From: a virus | Virus record (IMG/VR): IMGVR_UViG_3300025010_000021 | Coordinates: 1 to 41,763 of that record | Strand: one strand, 5' to 3' | Length of the DNA stretch: 41,763 nucleotides | Part shown: positions 4,145 to 41,130 of the stretch, piece after piece | Layout: each line of letters begins with the position of its first letter | Position numbering within the stretch: the stretch's first letter is position 1 | Notes under the pieces: generated by a model | The model's input: only the letters and a program-made list of their open reading frames with translations | Databases searched by the model: none | Told to the model about the DNA's origin: nothing | Made by a program: the position numbers and the translations under genes

Positions 4145-4423
4145 TCAGCCCTCCAATCCCAGCATCTCGATCAGTTTTGCGTTTTGCGCATCCCGCGCCA
4201 CAGCCAGCGCCACAGCCAGCGCCGCGTCTTCATCTTGATTGGGCATAACTTCATCAACCGGTACATACGTATCATCGGTCATTAAATTTTTGTAAGGCGG
4301 CTTACTGCCCTTGATTGTGAACGGCGTTCCATGTAGTGCCCGGACATGTGCGCTGTTGCCATCGATATTGATGACTTCAACATCCACTGCTTTTATCCCT
4401 GTCATAATTCGTTTGATATTCAT
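4145..4423 (-). CDS. Hypothetical small protein with beta-rich N-terminus
   Basis: 92 residues. Residues 1-55 look like a small beta barrel (VDVEVINIDGNSAHVRALHGTPF), then a linker and an Ala/Val-rich helix (ALAVALAVARDAQ). The helix is encoded by a short 12-bp tandem repeat near 4197-4222. The ATG overlaps the upstream stop as ATGA within GGTAAGGGATGA. Function unknown. Confidence 0.7.
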   Translation of the reverse strand: MNIKRIMTGIKAVDVEVINIDGNSAHVRALHGTPFTIKGSKPPYKNLMTDDTYVPVDEVMPNQDEDAALAVALAVARDAQNAKLIEMLGLEG

Positions 4424-5337
4424 CCCTTACCGCCTAATATTCTCGACTTCGCAAGAGCAATCAGTGCACGGTAGTCCTGTGCGTGCCGATTGTTGCCATG
4501 CTTTTCCAAGACTGCCGCAAGAAACTCATCAACTGTACCGGAAAAGCAACCGCACACCACGTCCAACCCATTGTCCGTGCGATAGATGGTGGTCATTCCG
4601 TCTCGACTGCCAATTGGCCCGGCAACAAAATAATCAGACGCTTGGGTAATGTGGCCGTGTCCGGACACTACGGCATGGTAGGACACTCTGGCTTGGTCGC
4701 ATACTACGGCATGTTCAGACACTATGGCCTGACCGGACACTGTGGCCTGTCCAGACACTCTGGCATGGTCGCACACTGTGGCCTGACCGTATACCATGGC
4801 TTGGTTGCATACTACGGCATGTTCGGACACTATGGCATGTTCGGACACTCTGGCATAACCGCACACTATGGCCTGACCGGACACTCTGGCATGGTAGGAC
4901 ACTCTGGCATGGTCGCACACTGTGGCCTGTTCGGACACTCTGGCTTGGTCGCATACTACGGCCTGACCGGACACTATGGCATGTTCGGACACTCTGGCTT
5001 GGTCGCATACTACGGCATGTTCAGACACTATGGCCTTGTCACGCACTCTGGCCTGACCGTATACCATGGCCTCGCCAGACACTATGGCCTCGCCAGACAC
5101 TATGGCCTCGCCAGACACTATGGCATCATCGCACACTATGGCCTGTTCGCACACTCTGGCCTGGTCGCACACTCTGGCCTGGTTGAATATCCAACAATTG
5201 CCGTCTTGGGATAGATTATGTTCACTCTTGACATACCCACCCATATCACCAGCCTTTATGTCAATGCTGGGTATGTCAACCAACGCCCTGATTTGGTGCA
5301 TCCCACCTGCTTCATTGTAGATCAGTTCATATTTCAT
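4420..5337 (-). CDS. Left-handed beta-helix (hexapeptide repeat) protein, 29 repeats
   Basis: 305 residues; first gene of the leftward operon, with AAAGGAGG 8 bases before the ATG. Residues 1-50 form a conserved cap (IRALVDIPSIDIKAGDMGGY, then NLSQDGNCWI) seen in a phage/prophage family. Residues 52-225 are 29 uninterrupted hexads of the form x-x-A-x-V-x (for example DQARVS, EHAIVS, GQATVC), which build a left-handed parallel beta-helix. Residues 230-305 are a C-terminal domain (SRDGMTTIYRTDNGLDVVCGCFSGTVDEF, quoted here only by its start and end: SRDGMTTIYR, CFSGTVDEF). Family members are usually called hexapeptide-repeat hypothetical proteins. No acyltransferase active-site loop is visible, so a structural or DNA-mimic-like role is as likely as an enzyme. 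Confidence 0.8.
   Translation of the reverse strand: MKYELIYNEAGGMHQIRALVDIPSIDIKAGDMGGYVKSEHNLSQDGNCWIFNQARVCDQARVCEQAIVCDDAIVSGEAIVSGEAIVSGEAMVYGQARVRDKAIVSEHAVVCDQARVSEHAIVSGQAVVCDQARVSEQATVCDHARVSYHARVSGQAIVCGYARVSEHAIVSEHAVVCNQAMVYGQATVCDHARVSGQATVSGQAIVSEHAVVCDQARVSYHAVVSGHGHITQASDYFVAGPIGSRDGMTTIYRTDNGLDVVCGCFSGTVDEFLAAVLEKHGNNRHAQDYRALIALAKSRILGGKG
4663..5184. repeat. 18-bp tandem repeat array encoding the hexads
   Basis: About 29 direct copies of a degenerate 18-bp unit (for example GGCATGGTCGCACACTCT read on the + strand) encode the beta-helix hexads. A limited set of exact 18-mers recurs in different orders, as expected from slippage and unequal recombination. The 18-bp period keeps several frames free of stops on both strands. 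Confidence 0.9.
5228..5279. promoter_or_regulatory. Inverted repeat TTGACATACCC / GGGTATGTCAA in the start of the beta-helix gene
   Basis: TTGACATACCC at 5228-5238 and its complement at 5269-5279, with another ATGTCAA at 5258-5264. These share the TTGACAT half-site with the promoters at 5384-5394 and 5427-5438 and with 5552-5558. Candidate operators for the HTH protein encoded at 5462. The role is inferred. Confidence 0.45.
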
Positions 5338-5704: not shown

Positions 5705-6507
5705 TCGAGCTGTATCAGGGCGACTGCCTTGACGTGATGCGCGGCTTCGAACCGGCGTGCATGGACTTGACCGTTACCAGTCCGCCGTATGACAACCTAC
5801 GCACGTACAAAGGCTATACGTTTGACTTCGAGGGTATCGCGCGTGAGCTATACCGAGTCACAAAACCAGGCGGCGTGGTGGTCTGGGTTGTTGGCGATGA
5901 AACAATTAAAGGATCTGAAACTGGCACAAGTTTTCGGCAGGCGTTGTTCTTCAAAGAGATTGGATTCAATCTGCATGACACGATGATTTATCAAAAGCCA
6001 GGTATGCGTTATCCAGATGCGGCACGTTACAACGCCGTATTTGAATATATGTTCGTTTTTAGCGTTGGACCCCCTAAAACATACAACCCAATTCAGGACC
6101 GGCGCAATACCTATGTCGGAGTAAAAATAGCCAGAGCTCATCAAGTCAGATCAACCGATGGCGTGGTCGGACCCAATTCGGCATACCGAAACGATCCGGG
6201 TAGAACGGTACGAGAAATTGGAATTCGCAACAATGTGTGGATAATACCATCCGGCAGCGAAAACGCAAAGGGAAAAGAACACCCCGCCACATTCCCCGAA
6301 GCACTAGCCCGCGATCACATTCTGTCATGGTCAAATCCTGGCGACATGGTATTCGATCCGATGATGGGTAGCGGTACGACAGGGAAGATGGCGGTCAATT
6401 ACGGTCGCAATTTTACCGGATGCGAGATCGCCGCTGAATATTACGCGATCGCAGAGCGCCGCATTCGCGCCGCGCAGCAACAGCCAGGTTTGCTAGAAAG
6501 GACATGA
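5701..6507 (+). CDS. Beta-class DNA methyltransferase (N6-adenine or N4-cytosine)
   Basis: 268 residues. The catalytic motif TSPPY is at residues 26-30 and the SAM-binding motif DPMMGSGTTG at about 219-228. Catalytic first, SAM-binding last is the order of class beta enzymes. HPATFPEALARDHI just before motif I matches motif X. TSPPY is frequent in N4-cytosine enzymes but also occurs in N6-adenine ones, so the product base is open. No restriction endonuclease is nearby, so it is an orphan methylase that probably protects phage DNA. Its last 15 codons also occur, inverted, at 325-369. Confidence 0.9.
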   Translation: MIELYQGDCLDVMRGFEPACMDLTVTSPPYDNLRTYKGYTFDFEGIARELYRVTKPGGVVVWVVGDETIKGSETGTSFRQALFFKEIGFNLHDTMIYQKPGMRYPDAARYNAVFEYMFVFSVGPPKTYNPIQDRRNTYVGVKIARAHQVRSTDGVVGPNSAYRNDPGRTVREIGIRNNVWIIPSGSENAKGKEHPATFPEALARDHILSWSNPGDMVFDPMMGSGTTGKMAVNYGRNFTGCEIAAEYYAIAERRIRAAQQQPGLLERT

Positions 6508-6999
6508 GATGAATACGTTTTGCCCGAACTGCGAAAAGGAAACAGACAGCACCCTCGTCTGTGAGGTGTACTTGTGTAACGAGTGCAATGAGGACAACGG
6601 AAATTATGAGAAGCCCGCCTATGCACTACTGAAACCGTTACGCGAAGAGTTAAAGCATCTGCGATTCAAAACATCAGCGCAGGATCGTTTCATTTTTTGG
6701 ATATGGAATGTCTACGCCAGAAATGTGCAGGACTTGATTTTGGACATCATGGGCGCAACAACTTACGATACCGAGGGCGAAGCAAGGGAGGGAAAATATT
6801 CTCTTCCAAAACATTGTTTTGATTTGATAAAAAGGATTGATGAATACACAGAAAAAATTTACGACGGTACTTATTTAGACAACAAAACAAGTATGGTTGT
6901 AAACGAACCTTCAAACCCTGATGTTTCAGTGACACAGGATGTTTTAATGGATATTAAAACCTCGTCAGATAATAACAAACCAGAAAGGACATGAGATGA
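6495..6999. repeat. 18-bp direct repeats bracketing a gene cassette
   Basis: AGAAAGGACATGAGATGA occurs at 6495-6512 and again at 6982-6999, 487 bp apart. Each copy holds a ribosome site and start codon. The inverted copy at 320-337 shows the same junction without the cassette, with the methylase tail followed directly by the MTSEEIA gene. Confidence 0.85.
6509..6994 (+). CDS. Hypothetical zinc-ribbon protein, inserted cassette
   Basis: 161 residues. The N-terminus carries CPNC (residues 4-7) and CNEC (about 23-26), a four-cysteine zinc ribbon. The rest is helical with an aromatic segment (FIFWIWNVYARNVQDLI) but too polar to be a clear membrane helix. Its DNA is visibly richer in A/T than its neighbours, and it lies exactly between two copies of an 18-bp ribosome-site repeat, both signs of recent acquisition. 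The stop, ACATGAG, is the same as that of the methylase upstream. Function unknown. Confidence 0.7.
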   Translation: MNTFCPNCEKETDSTLVCEVYLCNECNEDNGNYEKPAYALLKPLREELKHLRFKTSAQDRFIFWIWNVYARNVQDLILDIMGATTYDTEGEAREGKYSLPKHCFDLIKRIDEYTEKIYDGTYLDNKTSMVVNEPSNPDVSVTQDVLMDIKTSSDNNKPERT

Positions 7000-7105
7000 C
7001 ATCGGAAGAAATTGCACGAATGCGAGAATACGGCAAGGACTATTCCAATCTGACGCAGGCGTACACGAAGAGCGAGATGTTCGCCGCGCTGGACGAAATC
7101 GAGCG
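6982..7105. repeat. 124-bp perfect inverted repeat, right copy (partner 214-337)
   Basis: Identical to the reverse complement of 214-337. It covers the ribosome site and start of the MTSEEIA gene. Divergence begins abruptly at both ends. Confidence 0.95.
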
Positions 7106-8070: not shown

Positions 8071-8889
8071 ATGGCCCCAAAATACAGACAGATTCCAACT
8101 AAAACACCAGAGAGCTTTGACTTCAACGATATTCCTTCTGACTTTGGAAGAATGTTCTGGTTGATGTTACCGATAGCACTAGACAGTGAGGGTCGAGGAA
8201 TTGACAACACTCAATGGTTGCGGTCAAAACTATTCCCTATTCGAGAAGATGATGTTACCGAGCAGATATGCTCAACTATGGATTGGCTTGCGACAAAGGG
8301 AATGATAGTTCGTTATCAAGCCGAAGGGCGCAAATACTTTTATTCCGTGAACTTCAAGACTTACCAAACCGGAACCGACAAGGAATCACAGAGCTTCTTG
8401 CCAGCACCCCCGCCATTAGAAAAACCCACTCCAGACCTACTCCAGACTAACTCTGGAGTAACTCCAGACCTACTCCAGACTAACTCTGGAGTAACTCCAG
8501 ACCAAGTCCGCGTCAATGCAATTCAATACAATGCAGATGCAGATGCAGATGCAAGCGGAACGCAAAAAAAATTACCGCTCGCCGCTGCTCCTTCTGATCC
8601 TGCCGATAGGATTTGGAGACAAATAAAGTCTGGATCATTGACCATCCCCCCATCCTTGCGCGAAACTGTTATACCGATCATTGACGAGGCATTGCGGCGT
8701 AATAATCTGGATGAGGACATCACGGCGGCGGAAGGTAAAAAGTATTACGATGCCTATTGCAAGACCCGCAGCAAGCAGGGCAGCTTCTACAGCCCGCACG
8801 GTAAGGGCTGGATAGATTGGTGGGCGCAAGGCAGCATCCCTAAAAGCGGCAACGGAGCAGGCCACACCTACGCGGAGGAGTTCAAATGA
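8071..8889 (+). CDS. Replication initiator / helicase-loader-like protein
   Basis: 272 residues. Residues 25-100 look like the winged-helix domain of phage replisome organizers (FGRMFWLMLPIALDSEGRG, then WLRSKLFP and a strand pair around YFYSVNF). Residues 110-165 are a low-complexity linker with PDLLQTNSGVT twice, encoded by the repeat array at 8428-8503. The C-terminal domain ends GKGWIDWWAQGSI, typical of DnaD/O-type proteins. It directly precedes and overlaps the DnaB-type helicase gene, as helicase loaders do. Like lambda O, it would bind repeats inside its own gene and bring in the helicase. Exact family uncertain. Confidence 0.75.
   Translation: MAPKYRQIPTKTPESFDFNDIPSDFGRMFWLMLPIALDSEGRGIDNTQWLRSKLFPIREDDVTEQICSTMDWLATKGMIVRYQAEGRKYFYSVNFKTYQTGTDKESQSFLPAPPPLEKPTPDLLQTNSGVTPDLLQTNSGVTPDQVRVNAIQYNADADADASGTQKKLPLAAAPSDPADRIWRQIKSGSLTIPPSLRETVIPIIDEALRRNNLDEDITAAEGKKYYDAYCKTRSKQGSFYSPHGKGWIDWWAQGSIPKSGNGAGHTYAEEFK
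8428..8503. repeat. Iteron-like repeat array, probable replication origin
   Basis: A 33-bp unit is present twice in perfect tandem (8428-8460, 8461-8493) and a third time partly (8494-8503). Within it CTCCAGAC recurs and forms dyads with TCTGGAGT. It lies in the linker region of the replication gene and is followed by an A-rich, GCAGAT-repeated stretch (8530-8575). The arrangement matches the lambdoid origin inside gene O. Confidence 0.7.
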
Positions 8890-39452: not shown

Positions 39453-40370
39453 TTGAAAATAACCAGCGCACAACGCGGGGCTGTAACCACCATCACACTT
39501 GATCTTAGCGACGCGTCGGAGCAGGAAGTATTCGTAACATCCGACTTGCACATTGACAGCGTGTACTGCAACAGGGAATATCTGATCGAGGACTTGAAGG
39601 AAGCCGTGAGGCGCAAGGCGCTGATCCTGTTCGTTGGCGACATATTTGACGCGATGCAAGGGCGTTTTGACCCGCGCCGGTCAATGGCTGAACTGCGCCC
39701 AGAATACCGCCGCGAGGATTACTACGACTTTGTTATCAAAGATGTTGGTGAACTACTGGCTCCGTTTGCCAAAAACATAGCCGTAATATCGGACGGTAAT
39801 CACGAATTATCTGTGCTGAAAAATGCCAATACAAACCTGGCTGATCGGCTAGTAGGGCAATTAAATCTAAACTACGGCGGTAACATCCGGCACGGCGGCT
39901 ACGGCGGCTGGGTACGCTTCATGTGGGAGCGCGGCGGCGTGCCGAAGGGAAGTACCAGGATGAAATACTTTCACGGCGCGGGCGGCGATGCTCCTGTGAC
40001 ACGCGGGGCAATCCAGACGAACCGGCAGAGCGTTTATCTGCCGGACCCGAACATCATCGTCAACGGACATAACCACCACGCCTATTGGATACCGATTACC
40101 CGCGAGAGATTATCTGGCAAGGGTGAACTGTATTTTGACACGCAGTTACATATCCGCACCCCGGGGTATAAGCAGGGATATGGAGATGGTTCTACCGGCT
40201 ATGAGGTGACAAAGGGATTCGTGCCGAAGCCGGTCGGAGGCTGCTGGCTTACACTATGGTGTGGCAATAAGGATAATCCGATGGTGACTGCTAAGCCGCA
40301 CATTCATGACCCAGTTCCCGTCAATCCAGTTGCGGATTCGTACGAGGGTATTGAATTTCCGCAGGAGTAG
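39453..40370 (+). CDS. Calcineurin-like metallophosphoesterase
   Basis: 305 residues from a TTG at 39453 after GGAGGCTGA. The five family motifs are visible: DLH (Asp31, His33), GDIFD (Asp63), GNHE (Asn116, His117), FHG (His174) and GHNHH (205-209). These bind two metals and hydrolyse phosphoesters. In phages such enzymes are usually nucleases or nucleotide phosphatases. Here the gene lies after the lysis genes and ends the late operon, an unusual position for a DNA-repair enzyme. Substrate unknown. Confidence 0.85.
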   Translation: MKITSAQRGAVTTITLDLSDASEQEVFVTSDLHIDSVYCNREYLIEDLKEAVRRKALILFVGDIFDAMQGRFDPRRSMAELRPEYRREDYYDFVIKDVGELLAPFAKNIAVISDGNHELSVLKNANTNLADRLVGQLNLNYGGNIRHGGYGGWVRFMWERGGVPKGSTRMKYFHGAGGDAPVTRGAIQTNRQSVYLPDPNIIVNGHNHHAYWIPITRERLSGKGELYFDTQLHIRTPGYKQGYGDGSTGYEVTKGFVPKPVGGCWLTLWCGNKDNPMVTAKPHIHDPVPVNPVADSYEGIEFPQE

Positions 40371-40420
40371 TACAATTAACATTGCCTAATAACTGGCGCG
40401 GTTGAACCCGCCGGTTTAGG

Positions 40421-40592
40421 ACACCTGCCCGCAGCGAGGGGCGCTTGCATGGAGGACACACGGGATAGTTATCCCAGTCACCAGGGCGGAAGACCGCTAC
40501 AATGACCATGGAGCGCAGCGACCTGACCGGGCAGGTGTAGCCTCACCTACCATGTGTAGGAGTAGGTCATGACCCGTCAGCAATGGCGGGTC
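40421..40592 (+). ncRNA. Candidate structured non-coding RNA between convergent operons
   Basis: No gene lies here. A perfect 11-bp outer stem joins 40421-40431 with 40528-40538 (ACACCTGCCCG / CGGGCAGGTGT). Inside it a second helix pairs 40441-40452 with 40506-40516 with one bulge. Within that are two hairpins: GGGAT-AGTT-ATCCC (40462-40475) and GCGG-AAGA-CCGC (40486-40497). Downstream come CCTAC/GTAGG (40546-40560) with an alternative partner at 40562-40567, and a 9-bp stem 40571-40592 closed by a GCAA tetraloop. The plus strand gives the GNRA loop. I do not recognise the class; a packaging or replication site is the main alternative. Confidence 0.55.
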
Positions 40593-40932
40593 TTGCAATT
40601 ACAACGACACCTATACCGCTAACGTTTTCAGTATGGGTGTAAATTTTAATAACTATTAAAACATTTGGCGTCACTGAAACATCAGATATTGAAGGTTCTT
40701 TGTGTGCAATAACTTAGGCGCTGGATAAGGTTTTGCACACAGGATATAATCAGGATTATTATAATCGCGCCCTGAAAATACGGATCGCCGCTCCATGTTT
40801 TCGTGATGAATTGGGTATCCTATACAGAATTGTGCGGTGTGGCACAACGCAAATTACGTGTATCTGAAAAACAAACCGGATCACCGTTGTATATCGAATA
40901 ATAGACGTATTAAGTTATGCTACGCGAATGTT
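40593..40932. other. A/T-rich intergenic stretch with inverted repeat and possible promoter
   Basis: No convincing gene. TGTGTGCAA (40701-40709) and TTGCACACA (40733-40741) form a perfect 9-bp inverted repeat with a 23-base spacer. TGGATA (40722-40727), 17 bases and TATAAT (40745-40750) could be a rightward promoter overlapping its right arm. A second TATAAT is at 40760. TTGTGC/GCACAA makes a small hairpin at about 40831-40848. Confidence 0.5.
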
Positions 40933-41130
40933 TCAACTATTCAAATTATTCGACAGGTTCATCGCTTGATCCTCCCGGCACACCGGGCATGCGTTGACGT
41001 GCTGCTGCCAGCGACGACTGGCGCGGGCCAACATCGCGCGCCGGGACACGTCGCCTTGCCGCGCAGCTTGGTACTCGCGGTCGTAGTCGGCTTTCAGGGG
41101 TGTACCGATGTGGCAGGTCATGGCGGTCAT
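40933..41130 (-). CDS. Small protein with C-terminal HxxxCxxC motif
   Basis: 65 residues from the ATG at 41130, which overlaps the stop of the DUF551 gene (ATGA); a longer frame to 41169 lies inside that gene. Basic helical body (SRRAMLARASRRWQQHV) and HVNACPVC near the end, a likely zinc site seen in many small phage proteins. Last gene of the leftward operon. Function unknown. Confidence 0.7.
   Translation of the reverse strand: MTAMTCHIGTPLKADYDREYQAARQGDVSRRAMLARASRRWQQHVNACPVCREDQAMNLSNNLNS

Follow-up and report, generated by a model that had tools for sequence, protein, structure and literature searches.

A phage RNA homologous to the RNA of PDC-M04 loci is a candidate mimic of a host defence RNA

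What is the role of a strongly folded stretch that lies between the two convergent operons of a phage genome and carries no gene of its own? The window (the whole stretch of 41,763 nt that was analysed) is a complete-looking viral record with 127 bp repeated at both ends, and its end junction is spanned by a 16-kb contig from another assembly. Given genes for a T4-like large terminase, a portal-like protein, an SU10-type capsid protein and adaptor, a holin-like protein and a DnaB-like helicase, we assigned it to a tailed phage. The host probably is an Anaerolineae, judging by one gene with 62% identity in a MAG. The first clear genes past the phosphoesterase gene that closes the late operon are on the minus strand, and we found no convincing gene in 40371-40945, in agreement with the initial annotation, which had placed an unrecognised structured RNA at 40421-40592 in a gene-free stretch between convergent operons. 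Of the functions offered there, a packaging or replication signal and a 3´-end processing element found nothing in their support; a replication origin at the RNA region was rejected, since the GC skew minimum of the window is near 5 kb, away from the RNA. A regulatory RNA came nearest, but the relatives described below indicate a partner RNA of DUF3800/PDC-M04 proteins, which had not been considered.

The structured RNA was found to extend from 40385 to 40597 on the plus strand (Table 1) and to include a 5´ hairpin, P1, that had been overlooked. The 172-nt region first annotated folded on the plus strand at -80.4 kcal/mol (z -4.1), a value matched by 0 of 200 shuffles, and folding with flanks (40375-40650) gave a z of -5.5. 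This region had the lowest energy among 834 windows on both strands; by z alone it ranked about 15th and was exceeded by coding windows. The long perfect stem that had drawn attention held up, its 11 bp being beyond chance, and at the homologous place a relative, L004, has a 10-bp perfect stem of other sequence (also reached by 2 of 3000 shuffles). The plus strand was assigned from cellular homologues with a promoter and a terminator and not from energy, which prefers the plus strand in the window and the minus strand in L004. P4 of the window is followed by UUGCAAUU, with no U-rich terminator after it, and a promoter scan 5´ of the window RNA gave nothing convincing (92% of shuffles score as well). 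Lacking a convincing promoter of its own there, the RNA may be cut from the late mRNA.

Table 1. Parts of the RNA in the window and the gene preceding it.
Feature	Position	Strand	Basis or remark
Calcineurin-like phosphoesterase gene	39453..40370	+	Last gene of late operon; lead to related phages
P1, 5´ hairpin CCTAATAACTGGCG..CGCCGGTTTAGG	40385..40420	+	Fold of 40375-40650; abuts P2 directly
P2 outer stem, 5´ arm ACACCTGCCCG	40421..40431	+	11 bp, perfect; reached by 2/3000 shuffles
P2 variable inner part (bulged helix and two small hairpins)	40432..40527	+	Fold, comparison
P2 outer stem, 3´ arm CGGGCAGGTGT	40528..40538	+	Fold, shuffle test
Conserved 3´ module AGCCUCA-P3-AGUAGGUCAU-P4-UUGCA	40539..40597	+	Covariance-model matches, covariation
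P3 hairpin CCUAC-CAUGU-GUAGG	40546..40560	+	Covariation
P4 hairpin GACCCGUC-AGCAAU-GGCGGGUC, then UUGCA	40571..40592	+	Covariation

BLASTN of the RNA region against phages and plasmids returned nothing, and relatives were instead reached through the phosphoesterase gene, which led to L004 (an 83% relative). There, 58 nt of the RNA are conserved ~650 nt past the phosphoesterase, behind two extra ORFs. The inner part of P2 is wholly different in L004 and absent from cellular copies, and P1, the sequence of which is not kept in L004, is a weakly supported hairpin. With no other input than the window and L004, we built a covariance model of the 3´ module (R1), which matched two further phages, L121 (E 2e-5) and L112 (E 4e-4), the phosphoesterases of which are 57-59% identical. 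R1 found the module in other phages and in bacterial genomes, with E values down to 1e-10, and it hit the phage RNAs of L209, L264, L207 and L208 at their exact positions. R1 alone also matched the cellular locus L218 at E 2e-10, as well as L219, L220 and others, making the link from the window to cellular RNAs independent of iterated models. More viral contigs were found with a pattern derived from the window, L004, L121 and L112 and then with a wider pattern; two sets of pattern matches were discarded as coding sequence, one 36-nt set resembling a single conserved coding stretch (probably microviral) and the other, in L048, belonging to a helicase gene.

The initial annotation had named covariation among homologues as the check on the RNA, and it was present in four and then in 61 relatives. 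In a four-sequence MAFFT alignment, P3 and P4 were 100% paired, with two-sided changes in five of 12 pairs. The 61-sequence alignment, which was fitted to the model so that the four-sequence alignment is the cleaner test, had 98.2% of cells paired and two-sided changes in nine of 12 pairs, with 121 two-sided cells versus 35 in shuffles and a score reached by 0 of 500 shuffles. The P3 stem occurs as CCUAC/GUAGG, CCCAC/GUGGG, UCUAC/GUAGA and UUUAC/GUAAA around a very conserved loop, and two-sided changes affect six of the seven modelled pairs of P4. The window has the P3 hairpin with a CAUGU-type loop, the AG-rich linker between P3 and P4, and P4 itself, as seen with model R3 and, in reverse, with R1. 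R3 scores the window at 65 bits (E 6e-19), the window being one of its 61 seed rows. It is a divergent copy, with AGUAG where most members have GGAG and with long 5´ additions.

The stable fold and the covarying relatives thus bear out a structured RNA at 40421-40592, while the proposed switch between mutually exclusive GTAGG stems did not survive the comparison. L004, L121 and L112 lack the second GTAGG (40562-40566), and when the outer 3´ arm is paired with CACCTACC instead, the result is at chance level (equalled by 2041 and 857 of 3000 shuffles). Nor is the GCAA cap a conserved tetraloop; the P4 loops of relatives are AGCAAC, GGAA, CTGACAA and others. The description as unrecognised was borne out, in that Rfam 15 gave no meaningful match for the window even at E up to 10. 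The DUF3800 RNAs of Rfam (DUF3800-I, -VIII, -IX and others) are likewise small RNAs tied to DUF3800 genes, but none of their models is matched by the window at that limit or by the cellular copies at the gathering threshold, at which these copies had no Rfam match at all. DUF3800-VIII (RF03075), for instance, is a single long hairpin, whereas the present RNA has the form P3-P4.

Repeats and folds were also seen elsewhere in the window. Positions 214-373 and 6459-7105 are linked by two inverted duplications, one of 124 bp (perfect) and one of 54 bp (96%), and in L004 a methylase lies just past the RNA on the minus strand; together, these point to rearrangement of the early region. Positions 40644-40701 and 6902-6959 form a 58-nt inverted repeat (83%), and the 40644 copy, on the minus strand, retains the frame of the 3´ end of gene 6509-6994. 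The palindrome TTTTAATnnnTATTAAAA lies within this copy and is present in L004 too; we rejected it as a signal because it overlaps the 58-nt repeat and may be a gene remnant. Downstream of the RNA, 40701-40741 holds a 16-bp imperfect inverted repeat (TGTGTGCAATAACTTA/TAAGGTTTTGCACACA), possibly a terminator or protein site. A second strongly structured stretch, at 1600-1860 in the early operon, contains a stem of 18 bp that is nearly perfect (TCTCCGGCGAGTACGTGCA..TGCACACACTCGCCGGA), with a z of about -4.5 for both strands; 8401-8572 carries 11-bp direct and inverted repeats (ACTCCAGACC/ACTCTGGAGT) and has the most extreme fold z-score in the genome (-6.4). Gene 4420-5337 on the minus strand contains an 18-bp repeat in 23 register-shifted copies, its product having hexapeptide/YdcK repeats of the left-handed beta-helix type.

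For cellular copies of the module, we searched 400 Chloroflexota genomes with model R2 and used R3 for adjacency counts. The eight Chloroflexota loci with a clear core that we examined share one layout, in which a sigma-70-like promoter precedes a P3-P4 RNA with a U-rich end, and a two-gene operon on the opposite strand converges on the RNA such that its last codons reach or enter the RNA 3´ end. Gene A of the operon matches PADLOC PDC-M04A (E 5e-96) and Pfam DUF3800 (E 2e-14), and gene B matches PDC-M04B (E 4e-72); PDC is short for phage defence candidate (PMC11514479). In ten Chloroflexota loci, which are all the scorable ones, the RNA is immediately preceded by a TTGAC-17-TATAAT-like promoter, and cellular copies have a terminator-like U run after P4. 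With R3, PDC-M04B adjoined 13 of the 14 Chloroflexota RNA matches and PDC-M04A did so too in 12, the exception without PDC-M04 genes being L325. When we searched 301 genomes from the protein side, we obtained ten strong PDC-M04A loci; each belongs to a genome with an RNA match, and nine are beside the RNA. In G269, the RNA and PDC-M04A are on separate contigs, and the RNA contig carries PDC-M04B. More distant DUF3800 loci (L307-L309) had no such RNA. Among 398 Pseudomonadota genomes, both PDC-M04 genes were detectable at three of six RNA matches. As for Pseudomonadota loci without these genes, L312 adjoins genes for terminase-like proteins, from which we read that it is part of a prophage; L316 is close to the end of a contig. 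DUF3800 proteins are predicted to adopt an RNase H fold in which the active site is rearranged, and they have been linked to non-coding RNAs (PMC10910872), a background that would fit an RNA-bound nuclease. No solved structure related to the DUF3800 protein was found by sequence, and AlphaFold prediction of PDC-M04B from two sequences reached a pLDDT of 51 and was set aside. Our literature search, for which many subscription papers and preprints were beyond reach, found no text on PDC-M04 or DUF3800 RNA motifs.

In viruses, the RNA occurs in a different setting. We counted 72 viral members in 61 distinct clusters, on contigs of ~3 to 455 kb, and almost all copies are solitary: DUF3800 (PF12686) was present in one of 74 viral records, though such records may be fragments, so that absence of the protein is no proof. 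That single record (L264) has the whole PDC-M04 locus, and in L283 PDC-M04B is next to the RNA at a contig edge. System genes adjoin 16 of 20 cellular matches versus two of 61 viral clusters (Fisher p 2e-11). The window record has no DUF3800, and its ORFs gave no PDC-M04A or PDC-M04B HMM match. In 12 clusters, the RNA is no more than 300 nt from a phage tRNA gene and shares its strand in every case, and several viral copies are inside tRNA arrays. In phage T4, species 1 and 2 are stable non-tRNA RNAs in tRNA clusters. Many relatives of our RNA likewise are non-tRNA RNAs among tRNA genes, a likeness of position; no tRNA gene is near the window copy. In L204 (202-335) and L259 (667-865), the phage RNA is in tandem with a DUF3800-VIII RNA, the L204 tandem ending in a U-run terminator, which suggests that phages have DUF3800-type RNAs of different kinds in arrays. 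On another viral contig, of 76 kb (L290:1385-1531), a skipping-rope RNA (RF02924) is 9 nt upstream of a PDC-M04-type RNA. A small HNH-endonuclease-like ORF is directly 5´ of the RNA variable domain in L208 (1098-1730, minus strand), and L007 and L112 have HNH-like genes near the phosphoesterase or the RNA, possibly reflecting homing insertion.

The 3´ module of the window is homologous to the RNA convergent with the PDC-M04 genes, and the window thus has the RNA of a candidate host defence as a solitary viral copy. It differs from the PDC-M04 locus in lacking both proteins and an adjacent promoter of the cellular kind and in having 5´ extensions. The conserved fold, the homology, the absence of the proteins and the occasional second DUF3800-type RNA suggest a mimic made by the phage, and by analogy we think it fairly probable that the window element imitates the PDC-M04 RNA and serves the phage as an antidote or a decoy. 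The host would carry a PDC-M04-type system. The phage RNA, most likely made during infection, would take the place of the host RNA in binding to the host PDC-M04 proteins, with the variable 5´ part (P1 and P2) perhaps aiding stability or processing. It might serve as a substitute antitoxin that keeps the proteins inactive, in the manner of pseudo-ToxI, or as a decoy that ties them up in dead complexes, in the manner of Racrs; either way, the defence would be blocked. Pseudo-ToxI of phage PhiTE is a phage RNA similar to the RNA part of a protein-RNA defence of the host, with the protein absent (PMC3475682), and the window RNA, too, is a phage copy of a defence RNA without the protein. ToxI, however, is a repetitive RNA antitoxin for ToxN, unrelated in sequence and proteins, and inhibition was shown for pseudo-ToxI whereas we infer it here. 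Racrs (RNA anti-CRISPRs) are solitary viral copies of host CRISPR repeats (PMC10651486) and share with our RNA the status of a lone viral copy of a host defence RNA, the source here being the PDC-M04 RNA and not CRISPR repeats. As PDC-M04 is a candidate system only, the word "inhibits" rests on analogy.

The relation could also run the other way, the RNA having a phage function of its own, for example as a stable RNA from tRNA-type transcripts, which PDC-M04 copied or senses; it then would be a trigger and not an inhibitor. The spread over unrelated phages of up to 455 kb, often inside tRNA arrays, and the strong conservation of the P3 loop fit such a role. Selection should remove a trigger, however, yet the RNA is kept in ~60 distinct viral clusters, and the second DUF3800-type RNA beside it in L204 and L259 fits a set of antidotes better, so we regard this reading as unlikely. 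That the RNA is a remnant of a phage-borne PDC-M04 locus that lost its protein genes and has no present role could draw on L264, a viral contig with the whole system, and on L283, but we hold it to be rather improbable: the compensatory changes in P3, P4 and probably P2 imply selection for the fold, and the copies, which occur in many unrelated places, are as a rule solitary.

Position and strong stems, in turn, might speak for a cis-acting 3´-UTR element that provides stability, processing or transcription insulation between the convergent late and early mRNAs, since the RNA follows the late operon in both the window and L004. The cellular module, however, has its own promoter and terminator, in other phages the module is found within tRNA arrays or with a different order of genes, and no U run follows P4 in the window; we give this explanation little credence. 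The Cas12a repeat (UCUACUAAGUGUAGA) forms a hairpin of the type UCUAC-loop-GUAGA, and UCUACCAUGUGUAGA, found in many members (e.g. L207 and L209), is two loop positions off it. An RNA anti-CRISPR that mimics this repeat nonetheless is very improbable, even though DUF3800 proteins accompany some Cas12a2 (PMC10910872), as compensatory changes let the P3 stem vary freely (CCCAC/GUGGG, UUUAC/GUAAA), with no fixed UCUAC/GUAGA stem in the window (CCUAC/GUAGG), and the cellular neighbours examined are PDC-M04 genes with no repeat array seen there.

Returning to a phage-made mimic of the PDC-M04 RNA, RNA mimicry of host defence is already known, while the RNA family and the target are new as far as we searched. 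Beyond this phage, we lean, if slightly, towards the view that the solitary PDC-M04 RNA copies of many kinds of phages, jumbo phages included, form an undescribed class of counter-defence RNAs and that PDC-M04 is an RNA-dependent anti-phage system. The finding joins a phage RNA of obscure use, an unmodelled RNA at the side of DUF3800 genes and a defence candidate lacking a mechanism. The idea can be tested directly, with a short RNA that has a defined core and with both sides expressible in laboratory strains. If true, PDC-M04 would be a protein-RNA immune system against which phages deploy mimics of its RNA; such a strategy has to date been described for ToxIN and CRISPR.
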